From: Devosia insulae DS-56
Lineage (GTDB): Bacteria > Pseudomonadota > Alphaproteobacteria > Rhizobiales > Devosiaceae
Length of the DNA: 48,178 bases
NCBI RefSeq assembly: GCF_000970465.2
Contig: NZ_LAJE02000080.1
Coordinates: forward strand, 1-48,178
Direction of reading: 5' to 3'
Shown here: piece by piece, positions 74 to 7,182 of the stretch
How the letters are laid out: each line of letters opens with the position of its first letter
How positions within the stretch are numbered: the stretch's first letter is position 1
Position numbers and translations under genes: made by a program
The notes under the pieces: generated by a model
What the model was told of the DNA's origin: nothing
What the model saw: the letters and a program-made list of their open reading frames with translations, nothing else
Database searches by the model: none

Positions 74-306
74 AATGAAACGTCCGTCAGGTCCTCGATG
101 AAGGGGAGCGCAACGGAGTGGAGGGCCGGATCCAGCTCTTCCGAATGCGAGGTGGTGGGCTGAATCTCTTTGGCATGAGCGTTGCCCGATGCGGTGGCTG
201 CGATCGAGACCGAAAGCAGCCCGACCGTCGCAATACCTGCACCCTTTCCTACCTCCAGGGCTCCCCGCCTCTTGCGGCCCTGTGATCGATTGTCCCCATG
301 GGGCAT
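74..306 (-). CDS. Small exported protein, candidate RiPP precursor, C-terminus lost at contig edge
   Basis: The best start is the ATG at 306, preceded on the minus strand by AGGGAG six bases upstream; an in-frame ATG at 360 has no comparable site. About 77 residues are genomic before the reading frame enters adapter sequence. The N-terminus has a basic stretch with RKRRGAL (a twin-arginine-like pattern), then a hydrophobic segment at about residues 23-40, then NAHA followed by KEIQP, which looks like a signal-peptidase site. The remainder is acidic and Ser/Thr-containing, ending in ALPFIEDLTDVSF at the break. It is divergent from, and about 120 bp from, the cyclodehydratase operon. That position and size suggest the modified precursor, but no Cys/Ser/Thr-rich core is visible; the core would lie in the missing part. 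It could instead be an unrelated exported protein. Confidence 0.55.
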
Positions 307-426
307 ACAACTCTCCCTTTTCTGTATATCCGTGCGAATATGAGTCATGCTATGGCGCAATTCTTCATCTTGTAAAGAGTGTCGCCATTATCGGCCGCAT
401 CAATTGTTTTCGTGACGGAGAGTTCT
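307..426. promoter_or_regulatory. Divergent intergenic region of the RiPP cluster
   Basis: This AT-richer stretch separates the truncated minus-strand gene from the plus-strand biosynthetic genes, so it must carry promoters for both or lie within a longer transcript. On the minus strand TTTACA (375-370) is followed 17 bases later by an ATAGCA-like element, a weak candidate promoter. No clear plus-strand promoter or operator palindrome was seen. Confidence 0.3.
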
Positions 427-1728
427 TTGGTCGACGGACCGGCTAGCCGCGTCGCCCGGGAAATACGGCGGCGACTCAAGAATAACGACGTCGCCGGCGC
501 GCGGGCCCGCATCGAATATTTTCGCGGGCAATGGGGTGATGTTCCCGCGATGCTGCTGGCGGAGGGGCAGTGCGACTATCACGAGGGGAACTTCGCGGCG
601 GCGATGTTCGCAGCTCGCAAATATGCGGACTGGGTTCCCGGTTCGGCGGTTGCCCAACTGCTGTTGGCCGCTGCAGCCAAGGGCTTGGGCGACAAGGAGT
701 CGGCTTGCCGCCACAGTGCCGCCTATGTAGCCGCCGCTACCACGCCGCCGCCGCCGAACTCCGACATCGTCGTGGCTGATCTGTCAGCAGGCTTTGCAAT
801 CAATCGTGCGGGTGAAGCTACCCTCGAGAGTGGCGCCAACAACCTCGTCGGCGTGCTGGAGGGCGAGGGCTGGCGCCCCCATCTCGCCTGGAGCCATCTG
901 CTGCACCATGCGGATTGGGGCGCGTCATTGGGCAACGCCGCGCTGGTGATCTCAGGAATTACCGACAGCGACCTGGGCGAATCTCAACTCGTGGAACTCG
1001 AGCAGGCCGCTATGTCGGTTTCCGTGAAGGTCATCAACGGTCCATCCGCCGTACGCGCCTCGCGCCGCGACCGGGTAGCCGCCACGCGAGTCGCGGGCGT
1101 CATAGTTCCTCCAGTCGTCCGGCAGCGTGGCCGGTTCCTCCGCACGGCGGCATTGCAACCGTGGGAGCCGCAGATCATCCGGCTTGCCGGTTCGCACAAC
1201 GGACATGACACGTGGGTCATCGACTCGGAGGCAAGTTGGGAACGCTTCCTTCACGCGCTCGACGGCGACGCGTTCTACTACATCTCTCCCTATGTCGAGA
1301 CCGTGCAACGCGACGGCCTGCGCCGCAAGGCGCGGATCTACTCGATCTTCGGCAAAGTAATGGCAGAGCATCTGGTTCTCGACCACGCCCATATTGTACA
1401 CACCGGCACCGCGCGACGCGCAATGCTTGCAAGCCAAGAACAAGTGGACGAGGAGCTGGAATTTATCGATCGCTGGGTCGAAGAATTCCCTCAGATCGTG
1501 CCGCTGATGAACGCTTTACAGGCGCAAACCGGCCTCGATATCTTCATGGCGGACATCGGCTTGCTTGAGACTGGCGAGATTGCGTTGTACGAGGCAAACT
1601 GCAGCATGCGCGTCATACTGAAGTCAGAGTTGACTGACGAAGGATGTCACCTCGCTGACGCCACCGCACGCATTCGACAGGCGATCGTCGAAGGGCTGGC
1701 TGCACGGCGGACCCCTCGTAATGTATAA
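427..1728 (+). CDS. ATP-grasp-fold protein with TPR-like N-terminus (RiPP cluster)
   Basis: The first 100 or so residues are helical and Ala-rich with TPR-like spacing. The rest resembles the RimK/glutathione-synthetase ATP-grasp fold: INGPSAVRASRRD (about residues 203-215) is the characteristic N-P-AV..T/SRRD segment before the ATP-binding part, followed by VIVPPVVR, a central FYYISPYVE strand, and YEANCSMRV near the C-terminus, equivalent to the metal-binding E-N segment. I chose the TTG at 427 because GGAGAG lies about six bases upstream; a GTG at 379 is in frame but has no good site. The gene overlaps the next by 8 bp. ATP-grasp enzymes make carboxylate-amine or ester bonds, so a ligase acting on the peptide or a nonribosomal partner is possible. 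The substrate is unknown. Confidence 0.78.
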   Translation: MVDGPASRVAREIRRRLKNNDVAGARARIEYFRGQWGDVPAMLLAEGQCDYHEGNFAAAMFAARKYADWVPGSAVAQLLLAAAAKGLGDKESACRHSAAYVAAATTPPPPNSDIVVADLSAGFAINRAGEATLESGANNLVGVLEGEGWRPHLAWSHLLHHADWGASLGNAALVISGITDSDLGESQLVELEQAAMSVSVKVINGPSAVRASRRDRVAATRVAGVIVPPVVRQRGRFLRTAALQPWEPQIIRLAGSHNGHDTWVIDSEASWERFLHALDGDAFYYISPYVETVQRDGLRRKARIYSIFGKVMAEHLVLDHAHIVHTGTARRAMLASQEQVDEELEFIDRWVEEFPQIVPLMNALQAQTGLDIFMADIGLLETGEIALYEANCSMRVILKSELTDEGCHLADATARIRQAIVEGLAARRTPRNV

Positions 1729-3919
1729 GGGCTGGAGCTTTGCCGCTCGTTTCTCGGTTCATCGCGTCGCTCCCGATTCAGTTGTGCTGGCGTCTGACGC
1801 ACGAAAGTTCCTATTGCGGGGAACTGACTATTTCGAGTTGGCGCCGGCGCTGGCGGATCAGGTCCTACGGAGCGAGCCGCCGCTCGGACTAGCGGGTACA
1901 ACGGCCGACGAAGTGATTGAACGCTTGCAGGGGCTTGGCTTTGTCGAGCGCCATCCGGAAGTTTCTTCGCCCGACGGAGCCGGCACGGCGTTTTGGTCTT
2001 CATTCGGGGTGCCGCCCGAGATGGTGCAGGCCAGGCTGGCAGATTTCAGGGTTGCGCTGGTTGATATCTCTGCCGCGTCGGCTGCTCCGTTCGCGGCCGC
2101 ACTCGACCGCCTGGGCATAACGGTTGTGCCGCAGGTCAAGGACGCCTCGATGGTCGTGGTGCTGTGCGACAACTACCTCGATTCCCGCCTCAGTCAGATC
2201 AATGAGACAAGGCTGAATGACCGCCGCACATGGTTGCCGCTGAAGCTCACCGGGGCAGCTGCCTTGGTCGGTCCAGTGATTAGGCCGAGAGCCGGCGCAT
2301 GCTGGTGCTGCATCGAGCATCGCATGTCGGGTAACCAGGAGGTAATGAGTTTCCTCACCGGCAGCGCCGGTGCCGAGCTGCTCCGCGACGACACAGGGCG
2401 TGCCGGCCCGGCGATGGTGGCGGTAGAGTTCGCCGCCCTTGAGCTCGTCAAATTCGTGGTCAACTCGACCGGCAGCCAGCTCGGCGACCACTTGCTGAGC
2501 TTCGACCTCCTGGGGCCGGCAATCGCAGCGCATTTCGCGACGCGGCGTCCGACATGTCCGGCCTGTGGCGACCTGCAGCATCGAAGCCCGCTTCGCGCGC
2601 CGACAATCCCCGACCTGACAGAAACGGAAAAGCCCTACGTCACCAGCGGTGGCATGCGCGTAAGGTCACCCGCCGACACGGTCGCAAGGCTGTCACGGCA
2701 GATCAGCCCTTATACCGGAGTAGTGTCCAGCGTCGAGCCGCAGCCAAGGCCAAACGGTACGTTCTGCTTTGTCGCCAGACATCGCTTCAGCCGAAACGCC
2801 GGCAGCCTGTCGTCCCTACGCCACGGCTTGCTCTCCAAGAGCTCAGGCAAGGGCAGTACCCGCGATCAGGCAATGGCCAGCGCCCTATGCGAGGCGGTCG
2901 AGCGCTATTCAGGGATCGTCGTCGGCGACGAGATCCGGCAAACACGTGCCTTTTCGGACTTCGCGGCCGGCGACGCGATCGACCCGAGGCTCCTGATGCA
3001 GTACTCAGAGCGACAATACGCCCATCGCGCACGTTCGGGGGGATCGTCTCGGACCTTCGTGCCGCAGCCCTTCGCCGCCAACTTCCCAATCGAGTGGACG
3101 CCGATCTGGTCACTGACACGGCAGCGTTTCGTCTTCGCGCCGACGGCGCTGATGTACTTTTTCAGCGACGGTCCGGGTCATGTCCAGCTTTTCCCTTCGT
3201 CGAACGGCATGGCGTCTGGCAACACATTGGCCGAGGCGGTCTCGCAAGGGTTCCTGGAACTGGTGGAGCGCGACGCTTTCGCTATCTGGTGGTTCAACTC
3301 CATTCCCCGACGGGGACTTCAGCTAGGCAATTCTGGCGACCCATACCTCAAGGTCGCTGTCGAGGCGTTCGAGGCTTCCGGCCGCAGCCTCGAGTTGCTG
3401 GATGTGACGTCCGACCTGGGCATTCCAACGGTTGTTGCCGTGTCGGCAAGAGCGGAGGGCGACCAGATCATCTTCGGGTCTGGGAGCCATTTCGACCCCC
3501 AGATTGCCGTGACGCGCGCAGTGACCGAGGCTATCCAGCACTTGCAGATCACCTCCGAGGAGCCATCGCCGCTACGGCGCCAGTGGTTGGCTCAAAGGCT
3601 CGCCGATCATCCCTACCTTATGGCGGATCCGGGTCAAGCTCCGCTCGACATCAGAGATTTGCGACATGGAAAAAGCGACGACGAGACGGAGTTGCAAGCC
3701 GCGTTGCGCATCACTGGGCAAGCAGGACTGGAACTTTTGATGCTCGACCTGACTCGTCCCGACATCGGGCTGCCAGTGGTGCGCGTCGTCGTGCCCGGGT
3801 TGCGTCATTTCTGGCCTCGCTTCGCCGAGGGGCGGCTCTATGACGTCCCCATTGCGGCGGGATGGCTGCCTGCCCCCCGGGCCGAGGTCGACCTCAACCC
3901 GTTTTTTCCGGAGCAGTGA
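1721..3919 (+). CDS. Fused TOMM cyclodehydratase (ocin-ThiF-like leader-binding domain + YcaO)
   Basis: This 732-residue protein combines both halves of an azoline-forming cyclodehydratase. Residues 1 to about 290 are the E1/ThiF-like partner that binds the precursor leader, with Zn-ligand Cys pairs at CWCC (194-197) and CPAC (279-282). From about residue 310 it is a YcaO domain. GKGST (376-380) followed by ALCEAVERYSG (388-398) is the ATP-binding signature, and FLELVERDAF lies further on. It ends in LNPFFPEQ, a proline-rich tail like those of azoline-forming YcaO enzymes. Such enzymes phosphorylate the backbone amide and cyclise Cys, Ser or Thr side chains to thiazolines or oxazolines. The ATG lies inside the previous gene and the stop overlaps the next start. 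Family assignment is firm; the substrate peptide is not known. Confidence 0.93.
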   Translation: MYKGWSFAARFSVHRVAPDSVVLASDARKFLLRGTDYFELAPALADQVLRSEPPLGLAGTTADEVIERLQGLGFVERHPEVSSPDGAGTAFWSSFGVPPEMVQARLADFRVALVDISAASAAPFAAALDRLGITVVPQVKDASMVVVLCDNYLDSRLSQINETRLNDRRTWLPLKLTGAAALVGPVIRPRAGACWCCIEHRMSGNQEVMSFLTGSAGAELLRDDTGRAGPAMVAVEFAALELVKFVVNSTGSQLGDHLLSFDLLGPAIAAHFATRRPTCPACGDLQHRSPLRAPTIPDLTETEKPYVTSGGMRVRSPADTVARLSRQISPYTGVVSSVEPQPRPNGTFCFVARHRFSRNAGSLSSLRHGLLSKSSGKGSTRDQAMASALCEAVERYSGIVVGDEIRQTRAFSDFAAGDAIDPRLLMQYSERQYAHRARSGGSSRTFVPQPFAANFPIEWTPIWSLTRQRFVFAPTALMYFFSDGPGHVQLFPSSNGMASGNTLAEAVSQGFLELVERDAFAIWWFNSIPRRGLQLGNSGDPYLKVAVEAFEASGRSLELLDVTSDLGIPTVVAVSARAEGDQIIFGSGSHFDPQIAVTRAVTEAIQHLQITSEEPSPLRRQWLAQRLADHPYLMADPGQAPLDIRDLRHGKSDDETELQAALRITGQAGLELLMLDLTRPDIGLPVVRVVVPGLRHFWPRFAEGRLYDVPIAAGWLPAPRAEVDLNPFFPEQ

Positions 3920-5304
3920 TGACGCCGGAGCTCAGGGCTTTCGGGGAAGTCGACCGCCGCATTCAATTGTTCTGGAGGCCCGGGGTGCGGGCCAACCTGG
4001 TCGATGGCCGCGTCGTTGTAGAGTTCGCCAACGTTCGGATCAGGTTTCCCGACCAGGTTACGCCTTTCGAAACGCTCTTTCGCCAACTGGAAACCGGCCT
4101 GCCGCGGTCTGAATTGGTGTCCACTGTCCAAAGCGGGGACAGCCAGGTGAGCATTGAACTGCTTGCCGCGATTGATGGACTGAGCCGGCGTGGCCTGCTG
4201 GAGCATGCGGTGCTGACTTCAGGCGGCGCGGAACTGCTGCGCTTCCTCCCGCAGATGCCGAGCTTTGCGCTTGGCCAAAGATGGCTCTCCCCCGATGCCC
4301 GGCTCACCCTGTCGTCCTTCGCTCTGGTAAGGCGCGTGGGTGGAGGGCTGCTGCTCGAGTCTCCATTATCTGATGCCGCCGTCAGACTTACCGCGGCGGC
4401 ACTCCCACTTTTGGGGGTGCTCGACGGCCGGCCAGCACGGGAGGTAGCAGCCGCTGTTGGCGACGACCTCGCCGCCTGCCTGCCATTGCTGCTTGACGCC
4501 CAGTTGCTGGTGTCGGGAGCCTCTGAGCAAGGCGGACTAACGGGACACGAAGGCGTTTCGCTGGGGACGTGGGATTTCCATGACCTGCTGTTTCACGCGC
4601 GTAGTCGGGGCGGTCGGCACGCCTACGCATCCGGTGCCGTATACGGCAGGGAGGCGGTAGCGACCGAGCCGGTAGCGCACAAGACGCTGCCCGCCGGCGA
4701 GCGGTTCGCCATGCCGCCACCATCTGCGCTCCCGCCGGTCAAGCTTGGGCAGGTGCTGCGCGACCGCCATTCGATCCGAGAGCACGACGACGCAGATCCG
4801 ATCACTCTGACCGAGGTCGCCACCGTGTTGCATCACGCTATACAACCTTCGGCGAGAAGCTCCCGCCCTTATCCCTCGGGCGGCGGACTCTATGAGCAGG
4901 AGATATACCTCTGTGTCCGCGCCTGTGCCGGGTTGCCACGCGGCTTCTACTACTACGACAGTCGAGGCATGAACCTGGTCCGCCTTCCAGCCTCGGACGA
5001 CGACATGAACGGGATAATGGGTTCTGCCCGAGCGTCACTTGACGCAAAGGCGCCACCGCAGGTGGTGGTCAGCATCGCCGCTCGCTTCGCATTGGTCGGC
5101 TGGCGATATCGTTCGATCGCCTACGCCACTATGCTGCGGAACGCCGGTGCACTTTACCAGACCTTCTACCTGGTCGCCCAGGCCCTCGGCCTTGCCGCCT
5201 GCGGTATCGGCAATGGCGACATCGATCGGTTCCAGCGAATTACGGGTCAGAGTTTTCTCGAGGAGGGGACGGTGGGTGAGTTCGCTCTGGGGCGCCGGCC
5301 TTGA
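3919..5304 (+). CDS. SagB-type FMN-dependent azoline dehydrogenase
   Basis: The start is the ATG at 3919, overlapping the cyclodehydratase stop by one base (TGATG); it gives 461 residues. The C-terminal 190 residues are a nitroreductase/SagB domain, with RHSIR at about 283-287 (flavin phosphate contact), RPYPSGGGLYEQEIY at about 316-330, then GWRYRSIAYATMLRNAGALYQ and a C-terminal FALGRRP. The N-terminal 270 residues are a helical and winged region common to long SagB proteins. In thiazole/oxazole-modified peptides this enzyme oxidises azolines to aromatic azoles. Its presence implies the product carries azoles and not only azolines. It is translationally coupled to its neighbours. Confidence 0.92.
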   Translation: MTPELRAFGEVDRRIQLFWRPGVRANLVDGRVVVEFANVRIRFPDQVTPFETLFRQLETGLPRSELVSTVQSGDSQVSIELLAAIDGLSRRGLLEHAVLTSGGAELLRFLPQMPSFALGQRWLSPDARLTLSSFALVRRVGGGLLLESPLSDAAVRLTAAALPLLGVLDGRPAREVAAAVGDDLAACLPLLLDAQLLVSGASEQGGLTGHEGVSLGTWDFHDLLFHARSRGGRHAYASGAVYGREAVATEPVAHKTLPAGERFAMPPPSALPPVKLGQVLRDRHSIREHDDADPITLTEVATVLHHAIQPSARSSRPYPSGGGLYEQEIYLCVRACAGLPRGFYYYDSRGMNLVRLPASDDDMNGIMGSARASLDAKAPPQVVVSIAARFALVGWRYRSIAYATMLRNAGALYQTFYLVAQALGLAACGIGNGDIDRFQRITGQSFLEEGTVGEFALGRRP

Positions 5305-6431
5305 ACCTTTTGAGGGTGCTGGCCTGCTTGTTGGTGCTCGGTCATCACGCGGCGCAGTATCTATCGCTGCCTGCTCCCGGCTCGTTCCAAGGCGCGATCG
5401 TGCAGTTCTTTTCGGCCGGCTCCTTCGGTGTTGCGATCTTTATCATGCTATCTGGCTACCTGCTCTCGCGACCTTGGTGGGACGGGCTCGAACTCGATAG
5501 CCGGACCCTCGGCCGCTACGCATTAAGGCGAGCCGCAAGGATCATTCCCGCCTACTATCTCGCGCTGCTCGGTACGGTTCTGATATCGGTCGTGTTTTTC
5601 GAGATTCCTGTTACCGAAACCACCCTCTGGCGATTGCTTGCCGGCATGGCCTTCATCTCTTTCATAACGCCCGAAACGTTCTTCCCAGTTCCCGTAAATG
5701 CGCCGTTGTGGACTATCTCGATGGAGGTCTTCTGCTACGCTGCTCTACCCGCCGTGGTCAGCGTCGGGCGTTGGACCGGCAAGCCGTTAGCCGCTACGAT
5801 CGGGCTGCTGTGCTTCACACTAGCGGTACAGTGTGTCGTGACGATCGCCGGAACGCCTGCGCCGGCCGGCCGCGCCTACTCACTCGTCGACGTCGCCAGG
5901 CAGTGGATGCCGAACTACAATCCCGCCGCGTTCCTGGCGATTTTTCTCTGCGGGGTTTTGACGGCAGGTGTGGAGCGGTACATTCCGCGTGTGCTCTCAC
6001 CTCAGGCCGATGTGGTCGCCCTTTGCAGCCTGGGGGCAATCGGCGCGGTCGTTGGACTGAGTGCTGGAATCGCTCCCCACGGCTACGGGCTTTTCAACGT
6101 GCCGTACGCGTTCCCGTTGATCGAGCTTGCAATAGCGGGTGCGCTGCTTTCGCTTCCGAGAGGAACGTGGTTCACACTACTCGACGGATCCCAAGTCGTG
6201 AGGCTACTCGCCCGCTGGTCGTTCGGTATTTACCTCTGGCAGATGCTCTGTTTTGAAATTATGCGGACCGCGTTCGGGCTACCGTTTCCGCCCGATGGCC
6301 AGAATCCCCTGGTCGAGGGGTTGAGCATGGTCACATCGATAGCAGTTATCCTCCTTGTAGCGGCTGGTTCCTGGCATTTCGTAGAGCGCCCGGTAATTTC
6401 AAGCGTCCGGATGCGGCGCTCTGAGGTGTAG
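5301..6431 (+). CDS. Acyltransferase 3 family membrane protein (OafA/YrhL-like)
   Basis: This is a 376-residue polytopic membrane protein with about ten hydrophobic segments. The N-terminus NLLRVLACLLVLGHHAAQY carries the R-x(10)-H pattern of the acyltransferase-3 family, and FGVAIFIMLSGYLLSRPWW and RRAARIIPAYYLAL are further family segments. The C-terminal FGIYLWQMLCFEI and WHFVERPV also fit OafA-like proteins. The start is the TTG at 5301, overlapping the SagB stop by four bases (TTGA), so it belongs to the same transcript. The family transfers acyl groups from acyl-CoA to exported sugars or other hydroxyls. Here it may O-acylate the RiPP or a precursor of it, which is inferred from position alone. 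No dedicated exporter or leader protease was found in the cluster. Confidence 0.85.
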   Translation: MNLLRVLACLLVLGHHAAQYLSLPAPGSFQGAIVQFFSAGSFGVAIFIMLSGYLLSRPWWDGLELDSRTLGRYALRRAARIIPAYYLALLGTVLISVVFFEIPVTETTLWRLLAGMAFISFITPETFFPVPVNAPLWTISMEVFCYAALPAVVSVGRWTGKPLAATIGLLCFTLAVQCVVTIAGTPAPAGRAYSLVDVARQWMPNYNPAAFLAIFLCGVLTAGVERYIPRVLSPQADVVALCSLGAIGAVVGLSAGIAPHGYGLFNVPYAFPLIELAIAGALLSLPRGTWFTLLDGSQVVRLLARWSFGIYLWQMLCFEIMRTAFGLPFPPDGQNPLVEGLSMVTSIAVILLVAAGSWHFVERPVISSVRMRRSEV

Positions 6432-6759: not shown

Positions 6760-7070
6760 CTACTTCTTTATGACGCAGAAGCTGCTGCCATCCGGGTCGG
6801 CCAGCACGACGTGGTCGGCTCCATTCGGACATCGGAGGCATAAAGGTCGAGATGGTGGCGCTGATGGTCGGCCGCATCGGAGGAGTCGACGGTGATCGCC
6901 CAGTCCTCGGATGGTTGGCGCAGCGGCACATAGTCGAGCGCCTTCTGGTTGGGAGGATCTCGTTGCCGTGGCGCGCGACCCCGTTGCGAACTGTAGTCGC
7001 ATTGGGTTTGGCCGGCGCGCTGTTATGGCCGAAGGCGAACCCGCCGACATCGACCATTCGAGCCTGAGAT
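6760..7070 (-). pseudogene. Decayed VOC/glyoxalase-family gene
   Basis: The last part, 6822-6760 on the minus strand, encodes GADHVVLADPDGSSFCVIKK and a stop, a typical C-terminal strand of VOC-superfamily proteins. The preceding part in another frame, about 6970-6825, reads KALDYVPLRQPSEDWAITVD and then HHLDLYASDVR, again VOC-like. Intact homologues usually have about twenty residues between the LDLYA strand and the VVLADPDG strand; here they are missing and the frame changes. The N-terminal third could not be recovered in any frame. This is a remnant with at least one frameshift or deletion. The 5' boundary is approximate. Confidence 0.6.
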
Positions 7071-7182
7071 GCCACACATGGGCGACGGCTCTCCCTTCCA
7101 CCTGCCAAGCGCCCCGATAGCGCAGTCAACGCACCGCAAGCGGGAGAGGTTCGCCGACTGCACGTTCCGTGAAGGCCAGCCC

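Follow-up and report, generated by a model that had tools for sequence, protein, structure and literature searches.

We examined a gene cluster at the start of contig C80 (NZ_LAJE02000080.1) of Devosia insulae DS-56, whose genome assembly comprises 5.75 Mb in 410 contigs; the window, the whole stretch of DNA that was analysed, consists of bases 1-48178 of this contig. Four genes on the plus strand follow one another at 379 (or 427)-1728, 1721-3919, 3919 (or 3862)-5304 and 5301-6431, and every start overlaps the preceding stop, which bears out the single operon described in an earlier note made from the letters of this DNA. A small gene diverges from them on the minus strand, running from 306 to 76. 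Apart from 2 mismatches, bases 41-73 agree with the Nextera read-1 adapter, a fit equalled by none of 100 shuffles, and we take bases 1-40, by their look, to be the P5/i5 part of the same adapter. The frame that reads through bases 1-73 ends in ...LLYTSDAADE..., presumably a typical translation of adapter sequence. Genomic sequence begins near base 74: bases 1-73 are contig-end adapter, not genome, and the adapter match at 41-73 thus indicates that the divergent small gene is incomplete, cut at the contig end. The features of the locus are as follows.

1-73, no strand: leftover sequencing adapter (Nextera read-1 match at 41-73).
76-306, minus strand: probable precursor-peptide gene, 5' part; first 77 codons, with a basic start, a hydrophobic signal-like stretch, AHA and EDLTDVS.
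379-1728, plus strand: protein with a TPR-like N-terminus and a RimK/ATP-grasp-like C-terminus; alternative start TTG 427.
1721-3919, plus strand: fused leader-binding (ocin-ThiF)/YcaO cyclodehydratase of the LynD/TruD type, from family models, alignment and tree.
3919-5304, plus strand: SagB/ThcOx-type FMN (flavin mononucleotide) azoline dehydrogenase; ATGA overlap start at 3919, longest frame from 3862.
5301-6431, plus strand: membrane acyltransferase, Acyl_transf_3, from a Pfam match.

The earlier note had read this locus as a cluster for an azole-type ribosomally synthesised and post-translationally modified peptide (RiPP), or thiazole/oxazole-modified microcin (TOMM), and the strong family matches and ordered, overlapping genes support that assignment. 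The YcaO protein (732 amino acids) scores 295.7 bits against PF02624 (cut-off 25.7), 249.3 against TIGR03604, the SagD family (cut-off 219.25), and 108.3 against TIGR03882, the TOMM leader-binding domain (cut-off 36.9). Its residues 10-727 align to LynD (E 5.8e-135), and TruD is aligned too; these are the nearest solved relatives. In a six-sequence alignment, the Cys pairs C194/C197 and C279/C282, the GKG, ExxER and NG motifs and the ELxERD-type residues are invariant. Together, the model scores and the two alignments confirm a fused ocin-ThiF/YcaO protein with both Cys pairs, as had been noticed before. The invariant motifs and the LynD alignment further indicate that this is not a YcaO lacking ATP-site residues, the case that the earlier note had set against its own reading. 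Judged by its motifs, the window appears to hold the mark of a TOMM: a YcaO with an intact ATP site and a leader-binding partner domain. The labels of the next two proteins likewise stand, both above the model cut-offs: the SagB protein reaches 137.9 bits against TIGR03605 (cut-off 78.4) and also matches CyaGox (E 3.6e-37), and the acyltransferase reaches 108.4 against Acyl_transf_3 (cut-off 31). In the plasmid collection, no YcaO match reached 60%.

The ATP-grasp label of the first operon protein is weaker: the relatives and a profile support the ATP-grasp/TPR reading given earlier, but the protein alone does not. By itself it matches no ATP-grasp family in Pfam or NCBIfam and no PDB chain at E ≤ 1, and a TPR_16 match at its N-terminus falls below the cut-off. 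Relatives occur in many Proteobacteria (best E 5e-18), and one of the three scanned matches RimK-type models, below cut-off; a 13-row profile of the protein matches the RimK-type enzyme 3vpd (E 5.9e-6), with stronger matches to TPR proteins. No relative above 34% identity was found in overlapping sets of 398, 397 and 136 genomes. At L057-L074, in several Proteobacteria, TPR/ATP-grasp proteins adjoin pyridoxal-dependent decarboxylases and a third protein, an unexplained gene set.

A profile scan of genome contigs with a four-row YcaO alignment gave at least 592 pattern matches and at least 481 relatives, of which 80 were kept. Closer relatives of the YcaO protein may thus exist; none emerged from 385 genomes of the class, in which the best match stood at 41%. 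With L049, L050, L051 and L053 added, the set comprised 84 loci, 64 of which matched SagB. We clustered 5140 small frames near YcaO and found one outstanding family, of 50 sequences in 49 loci, all of which hold SagB; lower-ranked families were, by eye, mostly frames shadowing other genes. Every one of the 50 members shares the strand of YcaO, and all but one are upstream of it; their median length is 156.5 amino acids from the first possible start. They combine a basic start and a hydrophobic stretch with AxA-like sites, which together are signal-like, with a leader motif, [EDV]-[EQ]-E-[ILMV]-x-D-[VI]-[SGNT]-L (typically E-E-E-I-x-D-V-S-L), and a core of Gly-rich repeats with up to 21 cysteines (median 16 Cys and 2 Ser+Thr). 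Ten family precursors searched against Pfam gave no match. At L124 (4538-4978, offsets from YcaO), a second precursor-like sequence with a short core lies downstream of the cluster.

We found neither the ATP-grasp nor the acyltransferase protein in any of the 84 loci (80 searched at E ≤ 0.01, four at E ≤ 0.001), an absence that is incomplete for the shorter loci, since only 47 of the 84 exceed 21 kb. The conserved four-gene set with a small gene for which the earlier note had proposed to look is therefore not what recurs; YcaO, SagB and a small Cys-rich gene do, in 49 of the 84 loci. The larger recurrent neighbours in these 49 loci are YcaO, SagB, the precursor and a protein of the vicinal oxygen chelate (VOC) superfamily, and nothing else is found in more than 8. 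By tblastn, the VOC gene (bleomycin-resistance-like, a Pfam label taken from one VOC) is present in 43 of the 49 precursor loci versus 0 of the 35 others, 36 times upstream and 7 times downstream of YcaO; it is a candidate immunity or metal-binding partner. The six precursor loci without it are five Methylocystaceae and L100, an alphaproteobacterial metagenome-assembled genome. Because of these six loci, and because the window contig is cut on one side, we did not treat the VOC gene as defining. One example from the 43 loci is the glyoxalase/bleomycin-resistance gene at L049 12720-13520.

In a YcaO tree of 85 rows (the window, L052 and all but one of the 84 loci), the window YcaO branches as the sister (SH-aLRT 97) of a clade of 54 rows, in which all 49 precursor loci are found. 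The five other rows of the clade come from contigs 3.7-8.9 kb long, on which the YcaO match is preceded by 10-509 bases. Among the matches listed, the 48 best all fall within this clade: 43 have a precursor, and the other 5 are on short contigs that break off immediately ahead of YcaO. The window thus has adjacent YcaO and SagB genes and a YcaO beside the clade, in a sister position and on a long branch. It resembles the 49 loci (from Bradyrhizobium, Methylobacterium, Methylocystis, Methylocapsa, Methylovirgula and Xanthobacteraceae) in the order of these two genes, whose products are 39-43% (YcaO) and 30-40% (SagB) identical by tblastn, and in a small gene with a signal-like start and what looks like the DVS leader motif; it differs from them in its two additional enzymes, in the strand of the small gene and in the VOC gene.

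Within the genus, SagB was found in 2 of 19 genomes, the window genome and G010. In G010 (L053 7041-14157), YcaO and SagB stand beside a 594-amino-acid precursor-like protein with weak NHLP-type matches and long Cys/Thr/Ser repeats, and the protein that follows resembles, by eye, an S41-type protease; this type of precursor differs from that of the 49-locus family. In the YcaO tree, the contig L107 falls among Bradyrhizobium sequences, and its label, Frankia sp. RB7, is probably wrong. A Thalassospira marina plasmid (L050 4899-15682) carries LanM, a 'thiocillin family' peptide, YcaO, a P450-annotated protein matching SagB and an S53 peptidase.

The small gene of the window resembles these precursors. 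GGGAGAG before ATG 306 is a plausible ribosome site, and the product opens with a basic and hydrophobic start, as in the family precursors, and breaks off at the contig end within the leader motif. Because it joins this family-like start to a break at E-D-L-T-D-V-S, the small gene is probably the precursor gene; that it belongs to the YcaO-SagB family and has lost its core off the contig end is, from its sequence, a reading in which we place fairly good confidence. The divergent small gene that the earlier note called exported-type has a signal-like start, is cut at the contig end and is probably the precursor.

Statistical support for this assignment is mixed. Of 1019 window frames scored with the hidden Markov model (HMM) of the family leader, the one with the small gene comes out on top (E 0.0088). 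The 77-amino-acid protein alone scores 9.2 bits; 3 of 5000 shuffles, 14 of 5000 shuffles of its N-terminal half and 1 of 5090 unrelated small frames score as high, and 0 of 300 shuffles equal its hhalign score. When scored against a matrix of the leader motif, the last eight residues, IEDLTDVS, reach a level shared by 29 of 1,954,916 control 8-mers; within the window, 2 of 81,270 8-mers attain it, this one included. They lie 32 residues after AHA; in 12 of the 12 family rows listed, an AxA-like site is 28-35 residues away.

Several observations weigh against the assignment. The leader-motif test was chosen after the match had been seen. The small gene is absent from the matches (E ≤ 10) of an HMM built on the post-signal part alone, and shuffles of the C-terminal half keep its score in 591 of 5000 cases; from these two results, most of the profile match comes from the signal-like half. 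The hhalign probability is 44% or 14%, both alignments covering that half only. Using tblastn, we found no match to the small protein in the 80 loci at E ≤ 0.01, nor in the other four at E ≤ 0.001, and the full precursor profile finds nothing in the whole genome at E ≤ 10. The gene is divergent here, versus 50 of 50 family members on the YcaO strand. Three further points concern the kinship of the cluster as a whole: the window YcaO forms a long branch flagged by the tree program, in a tree built once; its C-terminus is NPFFPEQ, without the PxPxP that is typical of such YcaO enzymes (a Methylovirgula relative likewise lacks it); and the window holds no relative of the family VOC (best E 0.45).

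If the small gene instead encoded an unrelated exported protein, the true precursor would lie past the end of the contig or in another part of the genome, and the locus would still be a TOMM cluster. The concentration of the profile match in the signal-like half, the empty tblastn and genome searches and the divergent orientation speak for this view. We consider this unlikely, though it deserves to be taken seriously: the first rank under the full leader HMM and a motif at the family's spacing speak against it, as do the position of the gene next to the operon, the lack of any Pfam or NCBIfam match, and the fact that nothing better than E 0.029 was found in 18 other genomes of the genus. Plasmids gave one match, at E 10. 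The rest of the precursor was not found elsewhere in the assembly, either by DNA search (which returned the locus itself and short chance matches) or by the precursor profile. The cluster has a GC content of 0.596-0.64 versus 0.664 across bases 9001-48178, and this low value makes it probably a horizontally gained island. A non-functional or repurposed remnant, acquired horizontally, changing rapidly and making a TOMM no more, would fit this composition, the long YcaO branch and the scarcity of SagB in the genus; we give it a slim chance, as the four frames are all open and overlap one another, and YcaO has kept its motifs and Cys pairs.

The two additional enzymes could also define the product, which would then be a graspetide-like or amide-linked molecule with azoles secondary. 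Graspetide clusters, too, contain an ATP-grasp protein, and in the accessible part of one survey an ATP-grasp branch is placed beside SagB or YcaO/TfuA (PMC8939145). The window protein, however, matches no NCBIfam maturase model, and its fetched relatives occur in other contexts: 9 of the 20 loci that hold them have one family of neighbours in common, which a check of 3 representatives showed to be a pyridoxal decarboxylase in each, and YcaO or SagB is found at E ≤ 1 in 0 of the 20 (several of these contigs being only ~6 kb). We therefore regard this explanation as improbable. Still further from what we see is an ordinary member of a characterised linear azole-containing peptide (LAP) group such as phazolicin/klebsazolicin, which we hold to be very improbable. 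The azole chemistry is shared, and phazolicin is likewise a LAP of Rhizobiales, but in its cluster phzEACBD, in the accessible part of the description, C, B and D are separate genes and an exporter is present, and the phazolicin core is rich in Ser, Thr and Cys (PMC6783444). The C and D proteins, separate and accompanied by an exporter in that group, are fused in the window in the manner of LynD.

Our best reading is that the cluster represents a divergent variant within a Hyphomicrobiales TOMM family, with a signal-bearing polythiazole peptide and two extra enzymes. We think it likely, though well short of certain, that the cluster makes a thiazole-containing RiPP with the divergent small gene as its precursor gene, the core of which was lost off the contig end. 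Leader binding, ATP-driven cyclisation of cysteines and FMN oxidation are established LynD-type and SagB-type chemistry. The precursor would open with a signal-like N-terminus, continue with an acidic leader that closes on the DVS motif and finish, to judge from its homologues, in a core rich in Gly and Cys. Its leader would be held by the leader-binding N-terminal part of the fused YcaO protein, which would use ATP to cyclise the core cysteines to thiazolines, and SagB would oxidise these to thiazoles with FMN. The signal-like start suggests passage via Sec/Tat, with no dedicated exporter; the earlier statement that the window lacks an exporter holds as far as the cluster is annotated, but the contig ends inside the cluster. 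For the two extra enzymes we can offer guesses: the ATP-grasp protein might attach an amine or amino acid to the peptide or create an internal amide or ester, and the membrane acyltransferase might acylate the product. Only tentatively do we extend this to a pathway of hybrid type, where RimK-like ATP-grasp ligation and membrane acylation would further modify a leader-guided polythiazole that bears a signal, within a wider family of exported polythiazoles whose usual VOC partner would be an immunity or a metal/thiazole-binding factor.

Cyanobactin clusters offer the closest enzymes, as the fused leader-binding/YcaO proteins LynD and TruD align over nearly the full length and the dehydrogenase is of the ThcOx/CyaGox type. 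Cyanobactins are processed by PatA/PatG-type proteases, and their cores are flanked by RSII/RSIII. The window shows no PatA/PatG-type protease or cyanobactin-type precursor among the five genes identified at 76-6431, one side of the cluster being missing. The heterocycloanthracin/sonorensin family (TIGR03601) shares a Gly/Cys repeat core with the 49-locus family, and two of three precursors tested from the latter match its model weakly, below cut-off (E 0.00018 and 0.047); heterocycloanthracin differs in having a separate F protein and a truncated cyclodehydratase, according to the accessible part of Cox et al. 2015 (PMC4603692). The article reports over 20 TOMM families; in that part of it no family resembles the 49-locus one, and Bradyrhizobium, Methylocystis and Rhizobi- occur 0 times. 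Our PMC literature searches likewise found no description of the signal-bearing, Cys-rich TOMM family.

These data point to an apparently undescribed family of azole peptides in bacteria that are common in soil and root nodules (Bradyrhizobium, Methylobacterium, Methylocystis); its precursor is unusual in that it joins a signal-like start to a Cys-rich core in Gly-rich repeats. The window cluster looks like an odd, outlying member of this family, adding two enzymes not seen with the family in the loci examined. The loci named here allow direct testing of the precursor, the enzymes and the candidate self-protection (VOC) gene.

Further observations concern the surroundings of the cluster. Scans for tRNAs and promoters added nothing. 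In the plasmid collection, a carbohydrate gene of the window has its nearest match in Devosia neptuniae, at 71%, which perhaps reflects a host within Devosiaceae. A phage origin was considered and set aside: single-protein scans of viral_contigs, which reach only close relatives, confirmed no YcaO or ATP-grasp relative. Just past the cluster, window positions 6760-7101 give a weak, fragmentary match to Glyoxalase_6 (E 0.0057, under the cut-off); this stretch, which does not match the family VOC, may be what is left of a decayed VOC gene. Finally, the same genome encodes two more YcaO-family proteins of ~400 amino acids each, L002 and L003, on contigs C165 and C72.

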